From Desulfobacterales bacterium (GTDB lineage Bacteria > Desulfobacterota > Desulfobacteria > Desulfobacterales > JAHDSC01), in contig JAHDSC010000047.1 of NCBI GenBank assembly GCA_018432925.1, positions 1 to 37,198 of the forward strand: a stretch of 37,198 nucleotides of DNA. Direction: 5' to 3'. Shown piece by piece: positions 23,564 to 37,187 of the stretch. Position numbers and translations under genes: made by a program. Numbering within the stretch: position 1 is the stretch's first letter; each line of letters opens with the position of its first letter. The notes under the pieces were generated by a model, which saw nothing but the letters and a program-made list of their open reading frames with translations, searched no databases and was not told where the DNA came from.

Positions 23564-23595
23564 GGCATCCGGTTCCGGAAATCTTATGGGCGACC

Positions 23596-23746
23596 CTAAC
23601 AGGGTGTTGAAAAACAAGAATCAGGCCGTCAGGCAAGGCGCGCGGCGAAGCGACAAGCGCAGCATATTCAAGCATATGTGAGCATTGGCGAGAGCCCCGC
23701 AACGCTGAATGGCGGCCTCGGGTGCAGTTTTTCAACACCCTGCTAA
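23596..23746. mobile_element. MITE copy 1 with CTAA target duplication
   Basis: A 143-bp element (23600-23742) with terminal inverted repeats CAGGGTGTTGAAAAAC and GTTTTTCAACACCCTG, flanked on both sides by CTAA. The interior (GAATCAGGCCGTCAGGCAAG, then AGCATATGTGAGCATTGGCG) is nearly identical to the copies at 28005 and 30406. It carries no gene. It lies about 35 bases after the ftsK stop. Confidence 0.92.
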
Positions 23747-27937: not shown

Positions 27938-28000
27938 TTCTCAGGCCCATTTTTTGGAAAATCTGCTCGGGCGGAAGGAAAATGACGATGGCACCGCCGA

Positions 28001-28147
28001 TTAACAGGGTGTTGAAAAACAAGGATCAGGCCGTCAGGCAAGGCGCGCGGCGATACAACAAGCGCAGCATAAGCATATGTGAGCATTGGCGAGAGCCCCG
28101 CAACGCTGAATGGCGGCCTCAGGCGCAGTTTTTCAACACCCTGTTAA
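28001..28147. mobile_element. MITE copy 2 with TTAA target duplication
   Basis: A 139-bp element (28005-28143) with the same 16-bp terminal inverted repeats and interior as copies 1 and 3, but four bases shorter in the middle (GCAGCATAAGCATATG). It is flanked by TTAA on both sides. The right TTAA contains the stop codon of the minus-strand ImmA/IrrE gene, so the element landed at the very end of that gene. Confidence 0.92.
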
Positions 28148-30323: not shown

Positions 30324-30401
30324 TCGGTTGATTGCTCTGGCCCGTGTGAGACCAGCCGAGTTTTCAGTTGATTCAGCGCAGCAACCAATATGTTCACTTA
30401 C

Positions 30402-30552
30402 CTAACAGGGTGTTGAAAAACAAGAATCAGGCCGTCAGGCAAGGCGCGCGGCGATACGACAAGCGCAGCATATTCAAGCATATGTGAGCATTGGCGAGAG
30501 CCCCGCAACGCTGAATGGCGGCCTCAAGCGCAGTTTTTCAACACCCTGCTAA
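30402..30552. mobile_element. MITE copy 3 with CTAA duplication, inside the group II intron
   Basis: A 143-bp element (30406-30548) nearly identical to copy 1, with the same terminal inverted repeats and CTAA on both sides. It occupies what remains of domain IV of the intron relic. Confidence 0.92.
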
Positions 30553-31146
30553 TTGAACGACCACACTTGAGTACCGGTCTAATGTCTACTGTCCAAATGC
30601 CTACTTGCTCTCTCTAACCGTTCGGGCCTTCAGTACAAGCTTTGCGGTTCGGCATATCCGTTTCTCCGTCTTTCGACTCTGGAGTGCCTCACTAGCCTCA
30701 CCTGATTTATACCTACTATGCCTTCTGCTGACTTCTCCCATGCGGTCAGGGTCGATTGTGCTCTTCCCTCAGCCAGTTTCCGCCGCACGCGGCATCCCTG
30801 GGCACATGAGGGATCTCCCAGGGTAAGACACATAACTTTCAATGCATAAACGCCGGATTTATAAAGCACATCCCGTTGCGGATGGAGGACTTCGCGGTCA
30901 CGTGCCCGCTCGTCCCGGGTGTACAAGACCTCAGATCCGGTTCCTGTATGTCGCCCTGCATCTTTGAATTGGAGTTGGCCGCTCCTTGCAGTCGCTTTCG
31001 CTTTCAGCTCACCTTCCACTTCGCTCCGCATCCAGACCCCGCCTCACGACGACGCCCTTGCCCTTTTCCTAACCTTAGGCTCCGCGAATACCTGGTACAG
31101 GGACTTTCACCCTGATAGCTACGAGCCTGCCTGGCACACACGCCGC

Positions 31147-31209
31147 GCATAACCGGCTGGCAATGGAGTGCAACGGAATTGCCAGTCCGACTTGATGCGG
31201 TTGATATGC
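31147..31209 (-). repeat. attC of the EreA-like cassette
   Basis: A 63-bp site starting 23 bases after the esterase stop. On minus it runs from GCATATCAACC to CCGGTTATGC, with arms CTGGCAAT and ATTGCCAG. GTTATGC is the R' core site. It is the last attC of the array. Confidence 0.8.
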
Positions 31210-31232
31210 AACCTCGTTTCCACTTTCGGTCC

Positions 31233-32453
31233 CTATAGGTCAACCAGTTTGTCTTTGTTGGCGCCAGGAATGCAGAAGATGGCATCAAAGGCTTCGCTCA
31301 AATTCGTCTCAACGGACGCGCTTTGGGATCTCATTCGTTTTGTGCCTTTCACGTCGTCTGCAAGCACCAAACAGGAGGTCGTCATCCCGCCGATGTTAAC
31401 GATACGCTGCTCCACGCTGTCCTTTTGAATTTCATCAGCAGGGGCAAGCTCAACCGAAAAGCCAAGCGGGCTCTCAAGTGATGGATATTTCATCTCCGGA
31501 ACGGTGGTTCCCAAATGGGTTGCTCCAATGGCACGGTAGTCTTGTCGATGCGCAAGGTGTTGCCCCATGGGAACGGCCTCCAGTTCACCGGAAAAGGAAA
31601 GCAATGTTTTCTGGATGTGGTTGTTATGCGCCAGCAGAAGGATCTTCAAATTTGAGTCCTCTTGGAGACGCTTCTCCACAACGCCAGCCATGAATAATTC
31701 ACGAACAGATGTATCGCCCTCAAGCGAAGAGCCATCAAAGAACCTCTTCATGTTGCGCAGGCTTTCCAACGTATGTTCAACCGATGATACACGATCAAAC
31801 ACGTTTTGAAATAGCGCGTTCCCGTGAAACTTGGTAAGAGCCGGGGCCAGTCCCAATAGTCGCAATTTTAGTCGCATGATTCCAGAGAGTGCTTTATCCC
31901 TCGAAGCTGGGTCGAGTTCCCCCCATTGCGTTGATGAGACCACAGCGGACTCTCCGGAGATAGGTGCCAGAGATTGCCTTAACTCTTCCACTTCCGGTTT
32001 TACGAGGGGATCGAGGACCTCAATATCGATAGACAATTGATCGAGATCATCGCATGGGTTCAAAGTGTTGGGCAAATCGATGCCAATCACTATCAGTTTT
32101 CTGCTGGTTTCCCGGAGATAGGCTTTGAGCCAAGTCAGCACCGACCCATACACAGCGAAGGTCAATGGATTCGCGACATTTATCAGTTCATCTGCATCCA
32201 TTGAGGAATTAAGCCACTCGGAAATCCGATGGCCCTGAATCGCCCCGCACTCCATGCCAACTGCGTTAAATCCGTGTACCTCCACGAAATAGCGGATGAG
32301 ACTGGCTCTAGCCAGGGAGAATTCCGAAACAAAGTGGGCGCTTTCGCCAACGCCAATGATTCGGGAGTATTGCGCTATGGAAGCGATACTCTCAAACTCA
32401 CTGAAATCCAGCTTTAAAGGATGTAAAAGTGTTCTGGCCACTCGGCATATCAT
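31233..32453 (-). CDS. EreA-like erythromycin esterase homologue (integron cassette)
   Basis: A 406-residue protein, the same length as EreA as I recall it. The family's GESAHFVSEFSLARASLIRY block, MECGAIQGHRISEWLNSS, GIDLPNTLNP, LEGDTSVRELFMAGVV, LLAHNNHIQKT with its catalytic-region His residues, and KRMRSQSASVET all closely match EreA motifs; by eye similarity covers the full length. EreA opens the macrolactone ring of erythromycin. Start ATG 32453 has AAGGTG seven bases ahead. As a cassette with its own attC, it resembles known ereA cassettes of class 1 integrons, but the sequence is clearly divergent, so it is called EreA-like. Macrolide activity is inferred. Confidence 0.9.
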   Translation of the reverse strand: MICRVARTLLHPLKLDFSEFESIASIAQYSRIIGVGESAHFVSEFSLARASLIRYFVEVHGFNAVGMECGAIQGHRISEWLNSSMDADELINVANPLTFAVYGSVLTWLKAYLRETSRKLIVIGIDLPNTLNPCDDLDQLSIDIEVLDPLVKPEVEELRQSLAPISGESAVVSSTQWGELDPASRDKALSGIMRLKLRLLGLAPALTKFHGNALFQNVFDRVSSVEHTLESLRNMKRFFDGSSLEGDTSVRELFMAGVVEKRLQEDSNLKILLLAHNNHIQKTLLSFSGELEAVPMGQHLAHRQDYRAIGATHLGTTVPEMKYPSLESPLGFSVELAPADEIQKDSVEQRIVNIGGMTTSCLVLADDVKGTKRMRSQSASVETNLSEAFDAIFCIPGANKDKLVDL

Positions 32454-32515
32454 ATGTTCACCTTATAAAATGTCTCAATCATGATGCGTTCTGTGCTCCT
32501 ATGCAGGGTCGCTGT

Positions 32516-32590
32516 TCACAACGGGGGCCTTCACCGGCGGGAGTGGCGCGCAGCGGAACTCCCGTCCGAGTGTAAGGCATTGATGTTAAC
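32516..32590 (-). repeat. attC of the 220-residue unknown cassette
   Basis: A 75-bp imperfect hairpin. On minus: GTTAAC start, GCCTTACACTCGGACGGGAGT arm pairing with ACTCCCGCCGGTGAAGGC, ending CGTTGTGA. It overlaps the stop codon of the upstream cassette gene, as is usual for compact cassettes. Confidence 0.75.
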
Positions 32591-33248
32591 TGGTGCCTGA
32601 GCTAACGGCGATATCATATATTACTCGTGATCCATCTGGATTATCACCAAATACCAGGGCTCTGATATTATTAAATTCTTTTAGATCGCTTTTTGATTTG
32701 CCTTTAAAGAAATGTCCCTTTCCTTTACCTATTTTTGAGACTGCCCACACGGTGTTTTTATTATTTAATTGGAATGAGCCGATCAATTCTGTACCCATGG
32801 GATTTTTGCCGGGCCATTCTGGTATTTTTGCATAAGGAGTCGTTATGATAATGTATATTTCAATTGCCTTGATTTGTGGTGGTGGAGGCACCCACTTGAC
32901 CTTTTTGGAATTCTTTACTTCTGAATTGCTCGATACAGCGGTTTCCGGTGTAACTATCCTGAAGGCTAACGTAACCCCCTCAGCGATTTCAGGTGGTTGG
33001 GGCCATTTATCGGTAAAACGGCTAGCTAAGCTTGGAATCGCTCCTTCGACCCTATCTTTGTAGTTGCTCTGGCTAAATGCTACATGCCAATTACCAGATT
33101 GGTGCATGCTTGCTTTCAGTTCGCCACCCAGGGCTCTGCACGCTAAATAAATTTCGGAATGACCTCCAGATGTTTCAGTCCACAGCTTCCATGTAGCCGA
33201 GTGAAGCGATACGTTTCCAACTCCAAATCTTATTGATTTCTGAGGCAT
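32586..33248 (-). CDS. Unknown cassette-encoded protein
   Basis: About 220 residues if started at ATG 33248 (MPQKSIRFGVGNVSLHS). An in-frame ATG at 33272 lies inside the attC core site GTTATGC and would add eight residues. No ribosome site is obvious for either. The N-terminal half is beta-rich (SATWKLWTETSGGHSEIYLA), the middle has a Pro-rich loop (KKVKWVPPPPQIKAIEIY) and the C-terminal half again reads as beta strands (IGSFQLNNKNTVWAVSKIG). No signal peptide or membrane helix. No family recognised. Its place between two attC sites marks it as a gene cassette. Confidence 0.65.
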   Translation of the reverse strand: MPQKSIRFGVGNVSLHSATWKLWTETSGGHSEIYLACRALGGELKASMHQSGNWHVAFSQSNYKDRVEGAIPSLASRFTDKWPQPPEIAEGVTLAFRIVTPETAVSSNSEVKNSKKVKWVPPPPQIKAIEIYIIITTPYAKIPEWPGKNPMGTELIGSFQLNNKNTVWAVSKIGKGKGHFFKGKSKSDLKEFNNIRALVFGDNPDGSRVIYDIAVSSGTS

Positions 33249-33268
33249 CTTTGCGCCAGTTAACACCA

Positions 33269-33342
33269 GCATAACCGGTGTTTTTCGCAGAGTGTAGAGA
33301 GCGAAGCGAACGAAACGGCGCGAAAAACATCCGTGTTAATGC
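33269..33342 (-). repeat. attC of the GNAT cassette
   Basis: A 74-bp site. On minus it starts GCATTAAC and ends GGTTATGC. Arms CGGATGTTTTTCGC and GCGAAAAACACCGG pair almost fully, with a variable centre. It starts 17 bases after the acetyltransferase stop. Confidence 0.88.
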
Positions 33343-33359
33343 ATTTTAAATGGTTCTTA

Positions 33360-33818
33360 TCACAGCTTCAAAATGAGCCGTAGCATGTCTTTAAGTTGGA
33401 TTTCATTTTCAAAAATTGGTTCATCATAATTGTTGATGAAATAATCTTTGTGTATTGAGTCCACTCGAAATCCAAAACGTTGATAAAATGTCAATTGATA
33501 ACCAAAGGTTCCAGTTACTAATTCCACTGATTCAATATTCTTCTCTCTGAGACTGTCCAGAACAAATTGGAGTAATTGTGACCCAATACCTGATTTCTGG
33601 TTTTCCGGTAAGACAGCGATATTGAATAACTCAATTCTGTTTTTGTCTATGGGTTTTAAAACGCAGACTCCAACAATTTCTTTCTGGATTACAGCCACAT
33701 AACATAATGAATCTTCCAAATATTGATTTATACGTTCAATTGATGGATCCGCTTCAAGTAACAGCTTTTGAGGAACCAAGTCTGGAGAGATTTCCTTAAT
33801 TTCCATCATTTTTTCCAT
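33360..33818 (-). CDS. GNAT family N-acetyltransferase (cassette)
   Basis: A 152-residue acetyl-CoA-dependent transferase. Motif A is ELFNIAVLPENQKSGIGSQLL, with the QKSGIG pyrophosphate loop, preceded by the VAVIQKEIVGVCVLKP strand pair, and motif B lies in YQLTFYQRFGFRV. The acceptor is unknown; it does not carry the marks of a known aminoglycoside acetyltransferase. The first ATG (33818) overlaps the core site GTTAAAT of the upstream attC; the ATG pair at 33806/33803 gives near-identical proteins and may be used instead. Base composition is more A+T-rich than the backbone. Confidence 0.85.
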   Translation of the reverse strand: MEKMMEIKEISPDLVPQKLLLEADPSIERINQYLEDSLCYVAVIQKEIVGVCVLKPIDKNRIELFNIAVLPENQKSGIGSQLLQFVLDSLREKNIESVELVTGTFGYQLTFYQRFGFRVDSIHKDYFINNYDEPIFENEIQLKDMLRLILKL

Positions 33819-33873
33819 TTAACGCCGGAAATCACGCGCCGCTGTAAGCGGTCGCGTGGATTGATTCGATACA
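33817..33873 (-). repeat. Partial attC cut by the IS110 remnant
   Basis: On minus, a hairpin CACGCG-A-CCGCT against AGCGG-CGCGTG (33833-33858) followed by AATCACG-type arm sequence and the perfect R' core GTTAAAT. The distal R'' half is absent; sequence like the start of an IS110 element begins within about 30 bases. This suggests insertion into the attC. Confidence 0.65.
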
Positions 33874-33904
33874 AGTTATGGCCTTCCTTCAGATGAAGGA
33901 TATA

Positions 33905-34558
33905 ATGGAACCCCAAACTTTCATTAACCTCAAATTTTACAATCAACTGCACAAGTAATACCGCGGTGCCGATCTTCATGCCAGAAAAATGTATGTCTGC
34001 ATCTTGAATCATAGGGGAAAAGTCGTTGTCCATCCGAATATCAAAACCGACCCTGAACTGTTTTTCGAACGGATCTTTCCCTTCATCGAAGATGTTGTTG
34101 TCGGCGTCGAATGTGTCTTCTGCTGGTACTGGCTGGCCGATCTTTGCGCCGACCATCATATCGACTTTGTCCTCGGGCACGCATTATACATGAAAGCCAT
34201 TCACGGCGGCAAAACCAAAAACGATAAAATCGATTCTTACAAAATCGCCATGCTGCTCAAAGGCGGCAATTTCCCGACTGCTTATCCCTATCCGGCAAAA
34301 TGGCGGGCCAGCCAGGATCTTTTGCGCCGGCGCATGTATATCTCAAGGCGATGCAGCGAACTGGTCAAGTGGGCGGTCAAGGAGGCCATCCTCATGCTCA
34401 GAGGCTCTGCCGAAGCCAAATATTTGGTATCCAAACTGGAGCGCAGATACAACAAAGGCAAGGCCCTGGGCATCTTTACCCACAAGCTGGGCCGGGCCAT
34501 CTACTTTATGCTGAAAAACAAAGAGGCGTTTGATATGAAACGATTCTTCGATAAATAG
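33905..34558 (+). pseudogene. IS110-family transposase, decayed
   Basis: The frame from ATG 33905 reads MEPQTFINLKFYNQLHK, then a TAA at 33956-33958, then YRGADLHARKMYVCILN, which continues the IS110 (DEDD transposase) N-terminus in the same frame. VGVECVFCWYWLADLCADHH and GHALYMKAIHGGKTKNDKID are the family's signature blocks. After RRCSELV the sequence jumps to a C-terminal end (YNKGKALGIFTHKLGRAIYF), missing roughly 100-150 residues including the serine-containing transposase_20 domain. One stop codon plus an internal deletion make it inactive. It is the only plus-strand gene in the array. Confidence 0.88.
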
Positions 34559-35105: not shown

Positions 35106-35369
35106 CTATTCGTAATGTGTCCACATACGGATGACTTTCACTGTTTTGATGTCATCCAGTATTTGATAAACTAGACGATGCTGTATATTAATTCTTCTGG
35201 AGCATGCCCCGGATAGATCTCCGAGAAGTTTTTCATATGGAGGTGGAGTCTGGTAGGGATCTTTCCTGAGAATCTCTATAAGGTGCTCTGCTTGAGGTTT
35301 CAAACCGGAATGTGCAATCTTCTTGGCGTCTTTCTTTGCTTGTTTGGTGAAGACTATTTTCCAAGTCAC
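35106..35369 (-). CDS. yoeB: YoeB-family toxin
   Basis: An 87-residue RelE-superfamily ribosome-dependent mRNA endonuclease. It begins MTWKIVFTKQAKKDAKKIA and contains YEKLLGDLSGACSRRINIQHRLVYQIL, with the C-terminal WTHYE carrying the His-Tyr pair used in catalysis by YoeB. Length matches the family. Its start overlaps the antitoxin stop by four bases (ATGA), the usual coupling. As a cassette, such pairs stabilise integron arrays against loss. Active by sequence: no key residue appears changed. Confidence 0.93.
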   Translation of the reverse strand: MTWKIVFTKQAKKDAKKIAHSGLKPQAEHLIEILRKDPYQTPPPYEKLLGDLSGACSRRINIQHRLVYQILDDIKTVKVIRMWTHYE

Positions 35370-35608
35370 CAGTCTATGTCCTTATCGCACTCATCAACAG
35401 GAGTCTCAAGTCCTTCCTGGATAGATTCACGCATGCCAGGTATTGATGTTAGGAATAAAGTCTCCTGGATTGCACGCCAATCTTCCTCAGAAATAAGGAC
35501 TGCGGAGCTCCTTTTCCCTACAATCTGAATGGGCTCATGGGATTCTTTCACCTCATCTACAAGGCTATATAAACGTTTTCTTGCTTCTGTTGCTGTTAAG
35601 GTAGGCAT
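35366..35608 (-). CDS. yefM: YefM/Phd-family antitoxin
   Basis: An 80-residue antitoxin that binds YoeB and represses its own operon. It starts MPTLTATEARKRLYSLVDEV, the Phd/YefM DNA-binding opening, with SSAVLISEEDWRAIQETLFL in the middle and an acidic, toxin-wrapping tail (LETPVDECDKDIDW). The ATG at 35608 is chosen over that at 35614 because AAAGGAG ends one base before the latter and seven before the former. The palindromic operator lies 16 bases upstream. Confidence 0.93.
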   Translation of the reverse strand: MPTLTATEARKRLYSLVDEVKESHEPIQIVGKRSSAVLISEEDWRAIQETLFLTSIPGMRESIQEGLETPVDECDKDIDW

Positions 35609-35623
35609 ATTCATTCTCCTTTG

Positions 35624-35672: not shown

Positions 35673-35768
35673 GGCGAACGGGTTTTTCAGCTGTTGCCAG
35701 GGCAATACGGAATTTCGATTTACCAAGGCCGCCCCGCCCTGGCAATCAGCTGCAAAAAATGGTTGTGC
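35673..35768 (-). repeat. attC of the KOW-like cassette
   Basis: A 96-bp site. On minus: GCACAACC start, GCAGCTGATTGCCAGGGC arm, centre, GCCCTGGCAACAGCTG arm, ending GTTCGCC. Arms pair over about 17 bases with a two-base asymmetry, the typical attC bulge. The R' core departs from GTTRRRY. Confidence 0.82.
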
Positions 35769-35774
35769 GCTCTT

Positions 35775-36005
35775 TTATACTTGAAGTGATACAAGAGAAG
35801 CCTGAGGCACAGTAATTAGCGCCCCATTATCTCCACGCTCAATCATTAAAACAACCTCAGGTTCAATGGCTTGAATAGAGATAACTGAACATTTTTTCCC
35901 CTTAAACTCACCATCGACCACCTCAACAGAGTCATTTATTACAAATTTTACGATGCTATTCGTACGACCTTCATAAAAATCATTTTGTAGATTTTTTGGT
36001 ATCAT
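35775..36005 (-). CDS. Small KOW-like cassette protein
   Basis: A 76-residue protein starting MIPKNLQNDFYEGRTNS. The middle VEVVDGEFKGKKCSVISI matches the KOW pattern (hydrophobic, Gly, Lys-Gly, Val) and is followed by a second small beta section (GALITVPQASLVSLQ), so a small SH3-like barrel is likely. KOW folds bind RNA or proteins in transcription and translation factors; here the role is unknown. No ribosome site is obvious, and it may be read from an upstream cassette transcript. It is bounded by attC sites on both sides. Confidence 0.65.
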   Translation of the reverse strand: MIPKNLQNDFYEGRTNSIVKFVINDSVEVVDGEFKGKKCSVISIQAIEPEVVLMIERGDNGALITVPQASLVSLQV

Positions 36006-36038: not shown

Positions 36039-36098
36039 GCACAACGTTGCTAATCAGCCGCGCGGCTTTTTGCGTCGGCTGAATTAGCATGGTTATGC
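36039..36098 (-). repeat. attC of the DUF4268 cassette
   Basis: A 60-bp site very close to the classical 59-base-element layout. On minus: GCATAACC, then TGCTAATTCAGCCGACGC, a short loop, GCGCGGCTGATTAGCA, and GTTGTGC. The R'' GCATAAC and R' GTTGTGC pair with one G-U. It starts five bases after the stop of the gene. Confidence 0.92.
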
Positions 36099-36102
36099 GG
36101 GT

Positions 36103-37053
36103 TTATGCTATAGCCTTTAGTCTCTTTTTAATGAAAGGCGACATGATTTTTTTGAAATTGATAAGATTTTCAACATGCCATGCTCTAATTTGTATTAGTT
36201 CCTGTTCGTTTGATTCAATAGTCCCTTCTCTATATACTGAAATTCGTGAGGCTCTTTTATCATCAAGCCGTTCCCACTCAAGCTCTTTTCCAAATTTCGA
36301 ATGTATCTCTTCCTTTTGATCGTATAGCAAATCAAATAATGCCTTATTCTTTTCACCATCGCCAACATCAATATAAAGCTCCGTGCGTGCCTTACCTCCC
36401 TGTACGAAAACGGCGCCAAAAGTAATGCCCGAGACGCCAGAAGAAAAAGAGTACCAATTTTGGGGTTGTCCAATCTTTGCATTTGTAAACTGGTACTTTT
36501 CTCTAAGCTCATCAATTAACGCCTGAAAATAATTGCGGTACAGTTCTCCTTTAGCAGAAACAGTGCCACCGGCGTGGCGCTTTTTCGATTTCTGCCATTC
36601 GCTTGGAGAAACGACTGGCTTGAAACTGTAGGCTGGCTTTGAATCATCTATTTTGAAGACTTCAATAACAACTCCAAAGAATTGCGTGTCTTCGTCAGTT
36701 CTTTGATTTAACCATTCAAGAGCCTGCCTGTGTTCATCTCGTACAACCTCAGCAATCCATACCACTGTTGATGCGCTGTAACCAGCGGCATATGTCAGCA
36801 ACTTGCCAAGATGATCGTGATCCGTTTGTGTCAATTGATTTTCAATTATGACCGTGTGGCCGGAACCCAAATCTTTTGCGAGCAAATCCAAGGAGAAATC
36901 ACCAACGGCTGCTTCCATATCCGTGAGTTCCAATTCCATTCCAAGGGCTTCACCAAGTGAGCCAATGTTATCCGCAAGCCATGGTGTAAAATCCTTTGCT
37001 TCTTTAGGCCAAATGTCCCTTGGATTTAGCTTCTTTATTTTCCCAAATTGCAT
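36103..37053 (-). CDS. DUF4268 / PD-(D/E)xK-like protein (cassette)
   Basis: About 316 residues from ATG 37053 (MQFGKIKKLNPRDIWPKE), which has GAGAGG ahead; the ATG at 37080 lies in the attC core and would add nine residues. The N-terminal half resembles PD-(D/E)xK nuclease-fold proteins: GDFSLDLLAKDLGSGHTVIIENQL, with Asp and a Glu-x-Gln in place of the usual Glu-x-Lys, then DHDHLGKLLTYAAGY. The C-terminal half (LYRNYFQALIDELREKYQF, TELYIDVGDGEKNKALFDLL) matches DUF4268. Such proteins occur near restriction and other defence genes. Loss of the catalytic Lys makes cleavage uncertain; DNA binding or a modified active site is possible. Confidence 0.8.
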   Translation of the reverse strand: MQFGKIKKLNPRDIWPKEAKDFTPWLADNIGSLGEALGMELELTDMEAAVGDFSLDLLAKDLGSGHTVIIENQLTQTDHDHLGKLLTYAAGYSASTVVWIAEVVRDEHRQALEWLNQRTDEDTQFFGVVIEVFKIDDSKPAYSFKPVVSPSEWQKSKKRHAGGTVSAKGELYRNYFQALIDELREKYQFTNAKIGQPQNWYSFSSGVSGITFGAVFVQGGKARTELYIDVGDGEKNKALFDLLYDQKEEIHSKFGKELEWERLDDKRASRISVYREGTIESNEQELIQIRAWHVENLINFKKIMSPFIKKRLKAIA

Positions 37054-37076
37054 ACTTACCTCTCTGTTTACTGGAC

Positions 37077-37187
37077 GCATAATGCGGCGGTGACCTGCGG
37101 CGGTCTGGCGGAGCTGGGCGGCTGGGCGCTTGCTCCCGAGTCCGGTCAGCGGAGGCCAGACCCTGTCAGGTCCACTGGCTTGTTCGC
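37077..37187 (-). repeat. attC of the next upstream cassette
   Basis: A long (111 bp) site. On minus: GCGAACAAGCC (R''), GTGGACCTGACAGGGTCTGG arm, a central GC-rich loop, CCAGACCGCCGCAGGTCACC arm, ending ATTATGC. R' has A where G is usual. The gene it belongs to lies outside the window. Confidence 0.8.

Follow-up and report, generated by a model that had tools for sequence, protein, structure and literature searches.

The gene at 31233-32453 (minus strand) of the window, i.e. the whole 37,198 bp stretch of DNA that was analysed, was found to encode an EreA-family erythromycin (macrolide) esterase of 406 aa. The ORF call, with coordinates that include the stop codon, starts at an ATG at 32453 and has no internal stops, and the start codon is backed by alignment with a homologue (L002) in the Deltaproteobacteria MAG SM3-B3m. 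The context of the gene was examined using an attC covariance model trained on nine attC sites of other integrons, without window sequence, which identified six sites over the whole window (E-values of 5e-9 to 0.0016, all <0.01) between 31136 and 36098. All six lie on the minus strand and most of them mark the 3' end of a cassette ORF, and the array occupies the right end of the contig. One of them lies directly downstream of the esterase gene, on the same strand and in the array, and the gene is therefore an integron gene cassette. The cassette is predicted to span the interval between two recombination points, one in the attC upstream and one in its own attC. The features of the array are as follows.

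31233-32453 (minus): EreA-family erythromycin (macrolide) esterase gene (ORF, NCBIfam, Pfam, 6xcq, catalytic residues, dN/dS)
31141-32521 (minus): esterase gene cassette, predicted extent, 1381 bp (attC positions; leader and attC align with L002)
32454-32515 (minus): leader of the cassette, in which a ribosome-binding site (AAGGTG) precedes the ATG (sequence; homologous L002 leader)
31140-31209 (minus): attC of the esterase cassette, damaged, R'' GCATATC and R' split after GT (25.3 bits, E 9e-5)
30553-31139 (minus): group II intron, 5' part, in the attC R' box (GT^T) (Rfam RF02001, 82 bits)
32516-32588 (minus): attC of the preceding cassette, which encodes a hypothetical protein (32586-33272) (31.8 bits, E 1.2e-6)
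33258-33351 (minus): attC of a GNAT acetyltransferase cassette (33360-33818) (21.8 bits, E 0.001)
33817-33874 (minus): attC upstream of the GNAT gene (39.8 bits, E 5e-9)
35106-35614 (minus): Phd-YoeB type toxin-antitoxin pair (NCBIfam)
35673-35768 (minus): attC of a cassette with an ORF at 35775-36005 (21.1 bits, E 0.0016)
36039-36098 (minus): attC of a DUF4268 cassette (36103-37080) (36.5 bits, E 5e-8)

The Phd-YoeB pair shares 82% DNA identity with one in the L002 cassette array, where at least 10 attC matches were found. A remnant of an IS110-family transposase was also present within the window array, on the opposite strand (33989-34558, plus).

The host is a draft genome of 3.38 Mb in 198 contigs (97.8% complete), in which the sulphate-reducer marker dsrA had no match above the cut-off. 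It belongs to the same phylum as the MAG carrying L002, and to describe the cassette as environmental, as the first-pass annotation did, is an inference from this host. Further attC-like sites were seen elsewhere in the host genome (G000:C14:93479-96306 and single matches on C131, C46 and C135), and possibly represent other arrays without an integrase. A MITE-like element, a palindromic 152 bp repeat with GAAAAAC/GTTTTTC ends, occurs in at least 40 copies genome-wide, nearly all 95-99% identical, and three of these are in the window (23595-23746, 27996-28147 and 30401-30552).

Esterase identity and relationships

The predicted protein matched PF05139 (Erythro_esteras) with 71.3 bits, against a gathering cut-off of 26.4, and thus belongs to this superfamily. 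The NCBIfam EreA model was matched over positions 1-408 of 408 with 574 bits, and the EreC crystal structure 6xcq aligned with residues 2-406 (E 1.5e-161), consistent with the earlier statement that the product has the full length of EreA. The EreB and EreD models gave only ~127 bits, EreD being compared through its model score only. However, the score of 574 bits is below the 750-bit cut-off for EreA proper (NCBIfam NF000208), with which EreA1 and EreA2 score 935 and 952 bits. The other environmental members tested scored 543-597 bits, all <750.

The presence of nearly all EreA motifs had also been claimed, and all five known catalytic residues, E37, H40, E68, R251 and H279, were found to be kept, as they are in every type I member compared. 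These are residues 47, 50, 78, 261 and 289 in the EreC paper, where the numbers are those of the 408-residue EreC sequence plus 10, and the 6xcq entry itself bears the H289N mutation. At the positions invariant in ten other members of the clade, the window protein keeps 162 of 172 and differs at 10, including G38S, which lies between the catalytic E37 and H40 at a position where EreB has N. The dN/dS ratio was 0.30 against L002 and 0.14 against EreA2 (where dS, ~2, is near-saturated), and neither a stop nor a frameshift was present; the esterase has therefore been kept under purifying selection.

Over its whole length the protein is 62% identical to EreA1, EreA2 and EreC, 66% to a Nitrincola protein, and 66-67% to a group of ereA4-like proteins encoded by pALTS31, Halomonas and Providencia cassettes, values that, with the score below the EreA cut-off, fit its earlier description as clearly divergent. 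Identity rises to 79% with L002 and 77% with a protein from genome G261, both genomes being of the host's phylum, and relatives beyond these EreA-type proteins share ~40%. At the DNA level, the gene is 66% identical to that of EreA2.

The phylogeny that had been proposed as a check, with EreA and EreB, was reconstructed with IQ-TREE from 33 proteins rooted on EreB, and the window protein fell inside, not outside, an 11-member EreA clade (support 99/98). The clinical EreA/A2/C proteins form their own four-member branch (99/99), and the window protein lies outside it and, at 62%, well below the ~90% identity that membership would call for. The other branch (100/98) contains the ereA4-like proteins together with a weakly supported group (85/58) made up of Nitrincola, the window protein, L002 and G261, within which the last three come together with support of 99/96. 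EreB and L066, both far from the EreA clade, joined on long branches, but placement within the clade was unaffected. As the tree puts it outside the EreA/A2/C subclade, the window protein is a type I (EreA-like) esterase of a sister lineage of clinical ereA/ereA2/ereC, and is not ancestral to them. What stands of the first-pass annotation is that this genome, which is non-clinical, has an integron cassette for an EreA-like esterase, but direct ancestry of clinical ereA is not supported, the tree speaking against it.

An EreA-type esterase gene was found in none of the 57 nearest relatives of the host, in 2 of 395 sampled genomes of its phylum and in 1 of 201 in a sample of the Halomonas family, and the viral contigs searched yielded one distant relative only. 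A chromosomal housekeeping esterase of the phylum is ruled out by its presence in only those two sampled genomes. The patchy distribution, the array content shared with L002 and the homologous L002 cassette are consistent with spread as a cassette.

The damaged attC site and group II intron

The gene had been described as linked to its own attC, and an attC is indeed directly downstream, but its R'' is mutated and a group II intron splits its R'. In the intact homologous attC of L002 (7245-7319), R'' is GCATAAC and R' is GTTCGGC, whereas in the window R'' is GCATATC, ending in ATC rather than AAC, and GCGT runs straight into GTGTGCC, the start of the intron. Rfam group II domains D1-D4 were identified at 30828-31053, and the intron terminates at the 152 bp palindromic repeat. 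No reverse transcriptase match was found in the window intron, indicating that the RT has been lost.

The intron, which is on the cassette strand, is up to 79% identical to introns located at the same junction in clinical class 1 integrons (L102 and L103). Introns of this kind occur in class 1 integrons on an IMP-14 plasmid of E. coli and on a plasmid of Proteus penneri, where they are also on the cassette strand with the junction GCGT|GTGTG or ACGT|GTGTG, and in the E. coli plasmid the attC resumes at TAGATGC after the intron. As the window junction matches these, the intron has split the R' box after GT, adjoining the recombination point. IIC-attC introns typically target the bottom strand of the attC and are oriented against the cassettes; one same-strand case is reported from Enterobacter cloacae (PMC7923331).

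No intact integron integrase was found above the cut-off in the host genome, and an N-terminal integron-integrase-like fragment (L077; G000:C142:1857-2156) appears to be decayed. As the attC is interrupted and no integrase was detected above the cut-off, this copy of the cassette is probably immobile, or frozen. However, the array runs off the end of the contig, where an integrase would be expected, making the absence of the integrase uncertain.

Predicted function and alternative explanations

The explanation that best accounts for these observations jointly, and which is considered likely, is that the gene is a type I Ere cassette encoding a macrolide-hydrolysing enzyme, that it represents an environmental sister lineage, and that its attC was later damaged by an intron. 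Given its family membership, the protein is predicted to hydrolyse macrolides, most likely by opening the macrolactone ring of 14-membered macrolides, and it is a complete, probably functional relative of the erythromycin-destroying enzymes that integrons carry. Zielinski et al. proposed a mechanism in which H50, held by E47, activates a water that E78 and H289 place, with the transition state stabilised by R261 (PMC7979712). By homology, H40 of the window esterase, held by E37, would activate a water also positioned by E68 and H279, and this water would attack the ester of the macrolactone ring with R251 stabilising the transition state; the ring-opened macrolide would no longer be an antibiotic. 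The cassette may have entered a chromosomal array of the host via site-specific recombination at attC, and the group II intron would have landed later at the recombination point of the esterase attC, probably leaving this copy no longer mobile.

A type I Ere-fold esterase that has another lactone or ester as its natural substrate, with macrolide hydrolysis absent or incidental, is unlikely but deserves consideration; the first-pass annotation had offered a different natural ester as its second reading. This analysis found no link between the host and macrolides, identity to the tested enzymes is 62% only, and the wider family includes BcR135/136, which show esterase activity towards p-nitrophenyl butyrate and for which a role in succinoglycan biosynthesis has been proposed (PMC7979712). 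However, wherever activity or resistance data have been published for members of its own clade, the enzymes are macrolide esterases. The macrolide esterase activity of EreC was established by LC-MS, its substrates being 14-membered rings and azithromycin, with two 16-membered macrolides hydrolysed poorly (PMC7979712), and the MIC of erythromycin for E. coli MG1655 increases >16-fold with ereA2 and ereA3 cassettes (PMC11721406). The retention of all catalytic residues and the location of relatives in resistance integrons, next to dfrA, aadA and blaOXA, also argue against a different substrate. A misassembled or contaminating array end, which would mean that the cassette is not of this host, is very improbable. 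The binning of draft genomes can misplace mobile arrays and no integron integrase was found above the cut-off in the bin, but the array and chromosomal genes form one uninterrupted stretch, and a chimeric contig is unlikely because copies of the genome-wide 152 bp repeat both adjoin the array (30401-30552) and sit in the chromosomal part (23595-23746). Relatives with the same GC are also carried by two genomes of the same phylum.

Least probable of all is that the window lineage was the direct source of the clinical ereA cassettes, as the first-pass annotation had suggested. The cassette is in a non-clinical genome, and the stretch from the stop codon to R'' is alike in the L002, EreA1 and ereA4 cassettes beyond shuffles (best pairs L002/EreA1, p 0.003, and L002/ereA4, p <0.0005), although several pairs were non-significant and the R'' motif itself adds to the likeness. 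However, EreA/A2/C are on the other side of a well-supported split from the group holding the window protein, the DNA identity of 66% to EreA2 corresponds to a dS of ~2, and the attC sites of the three lineages differ. The resemblance of the stop-to-R'' stretches is no more than a hint of one old cassette ancestor for the L002, EreA1 and ereA4 cassettes. A more speculative and somewhat doubtful extension is that EreA was turned into a cassette a single time, well before macrolides came into clinical use, and that cassettes descended from it survive in the chromosomal arrays of uncultured hosts of the Deltaproteobacteria type, selected by a natural macrolactone. If so, integron macrolide resistance would be older than medicine and its environmental phylogeny would be recoverable.

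The gene is thus genuine and complete, and it probably encodes a working member of a known family of resistance enzymes, of an ordinary kind but in a new lineage and host group. A clinically important cassette family thereby gains a lineage from another phylum, which provides those tracing clinical ereA with a sister group for testing its origin. The current NCBI EreA cut-off misses environmental EreA cassettes, one of them already on a wastewater plasmid, and the window cassette is also an example of one apparently frozen by an intron at its recombination point.

Comparison with known systems

The EreA, EreA2 and EreC determinants of class 1 and class 2 integrons resemble the window esterase in length, family, catalytic residues and carriage on a cassette with an attC. 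However, the window gene shares only 62% protein and 66% DNA identity with them, belongs to a separate branch, has a different attC that is broken by an intron, and is chromosomal.

The ereA4b cassette of pALTS31 (In1810) and near-identical cassettes in Halomonas and Providencia are on the window's side of the EreA tree, 66-67% identical and also below 750 bits. That of pALTS31 was published under the name ereA4b, with the remark that AMRFinder had missed it (PMC8098119). In contrast to the window cassette, the ereA4-like cassettes have another attC and leader, and their integrons, found on plasmids and in Providencia, include an integrase. Three copies of an ereA4-like esterase cassette (L005, L006 and L007), each near an integron integrase, were seen in the chromosome of Providencia rettgeri RB151.

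The L002 cassette, at 79% identity and in the same phylum, aligns with the window cassette in leader, ORF and attC, but differs in its intact attC and in the full integron integrase encoded by its genome. The gene in genome G261 (L059/L076; 77% identical, same phylum) is near an integron-integrase fragment in the case of L059, but unlike the window gene is followed by no recognisable attC. The type II enzymes EreB and EreD belong to the same superfamily and have the same catalytic histidines and glutamates, but differ in having K rather than R at position 251, far lower model scores and, for EreB, ~26% identity to the window protein.
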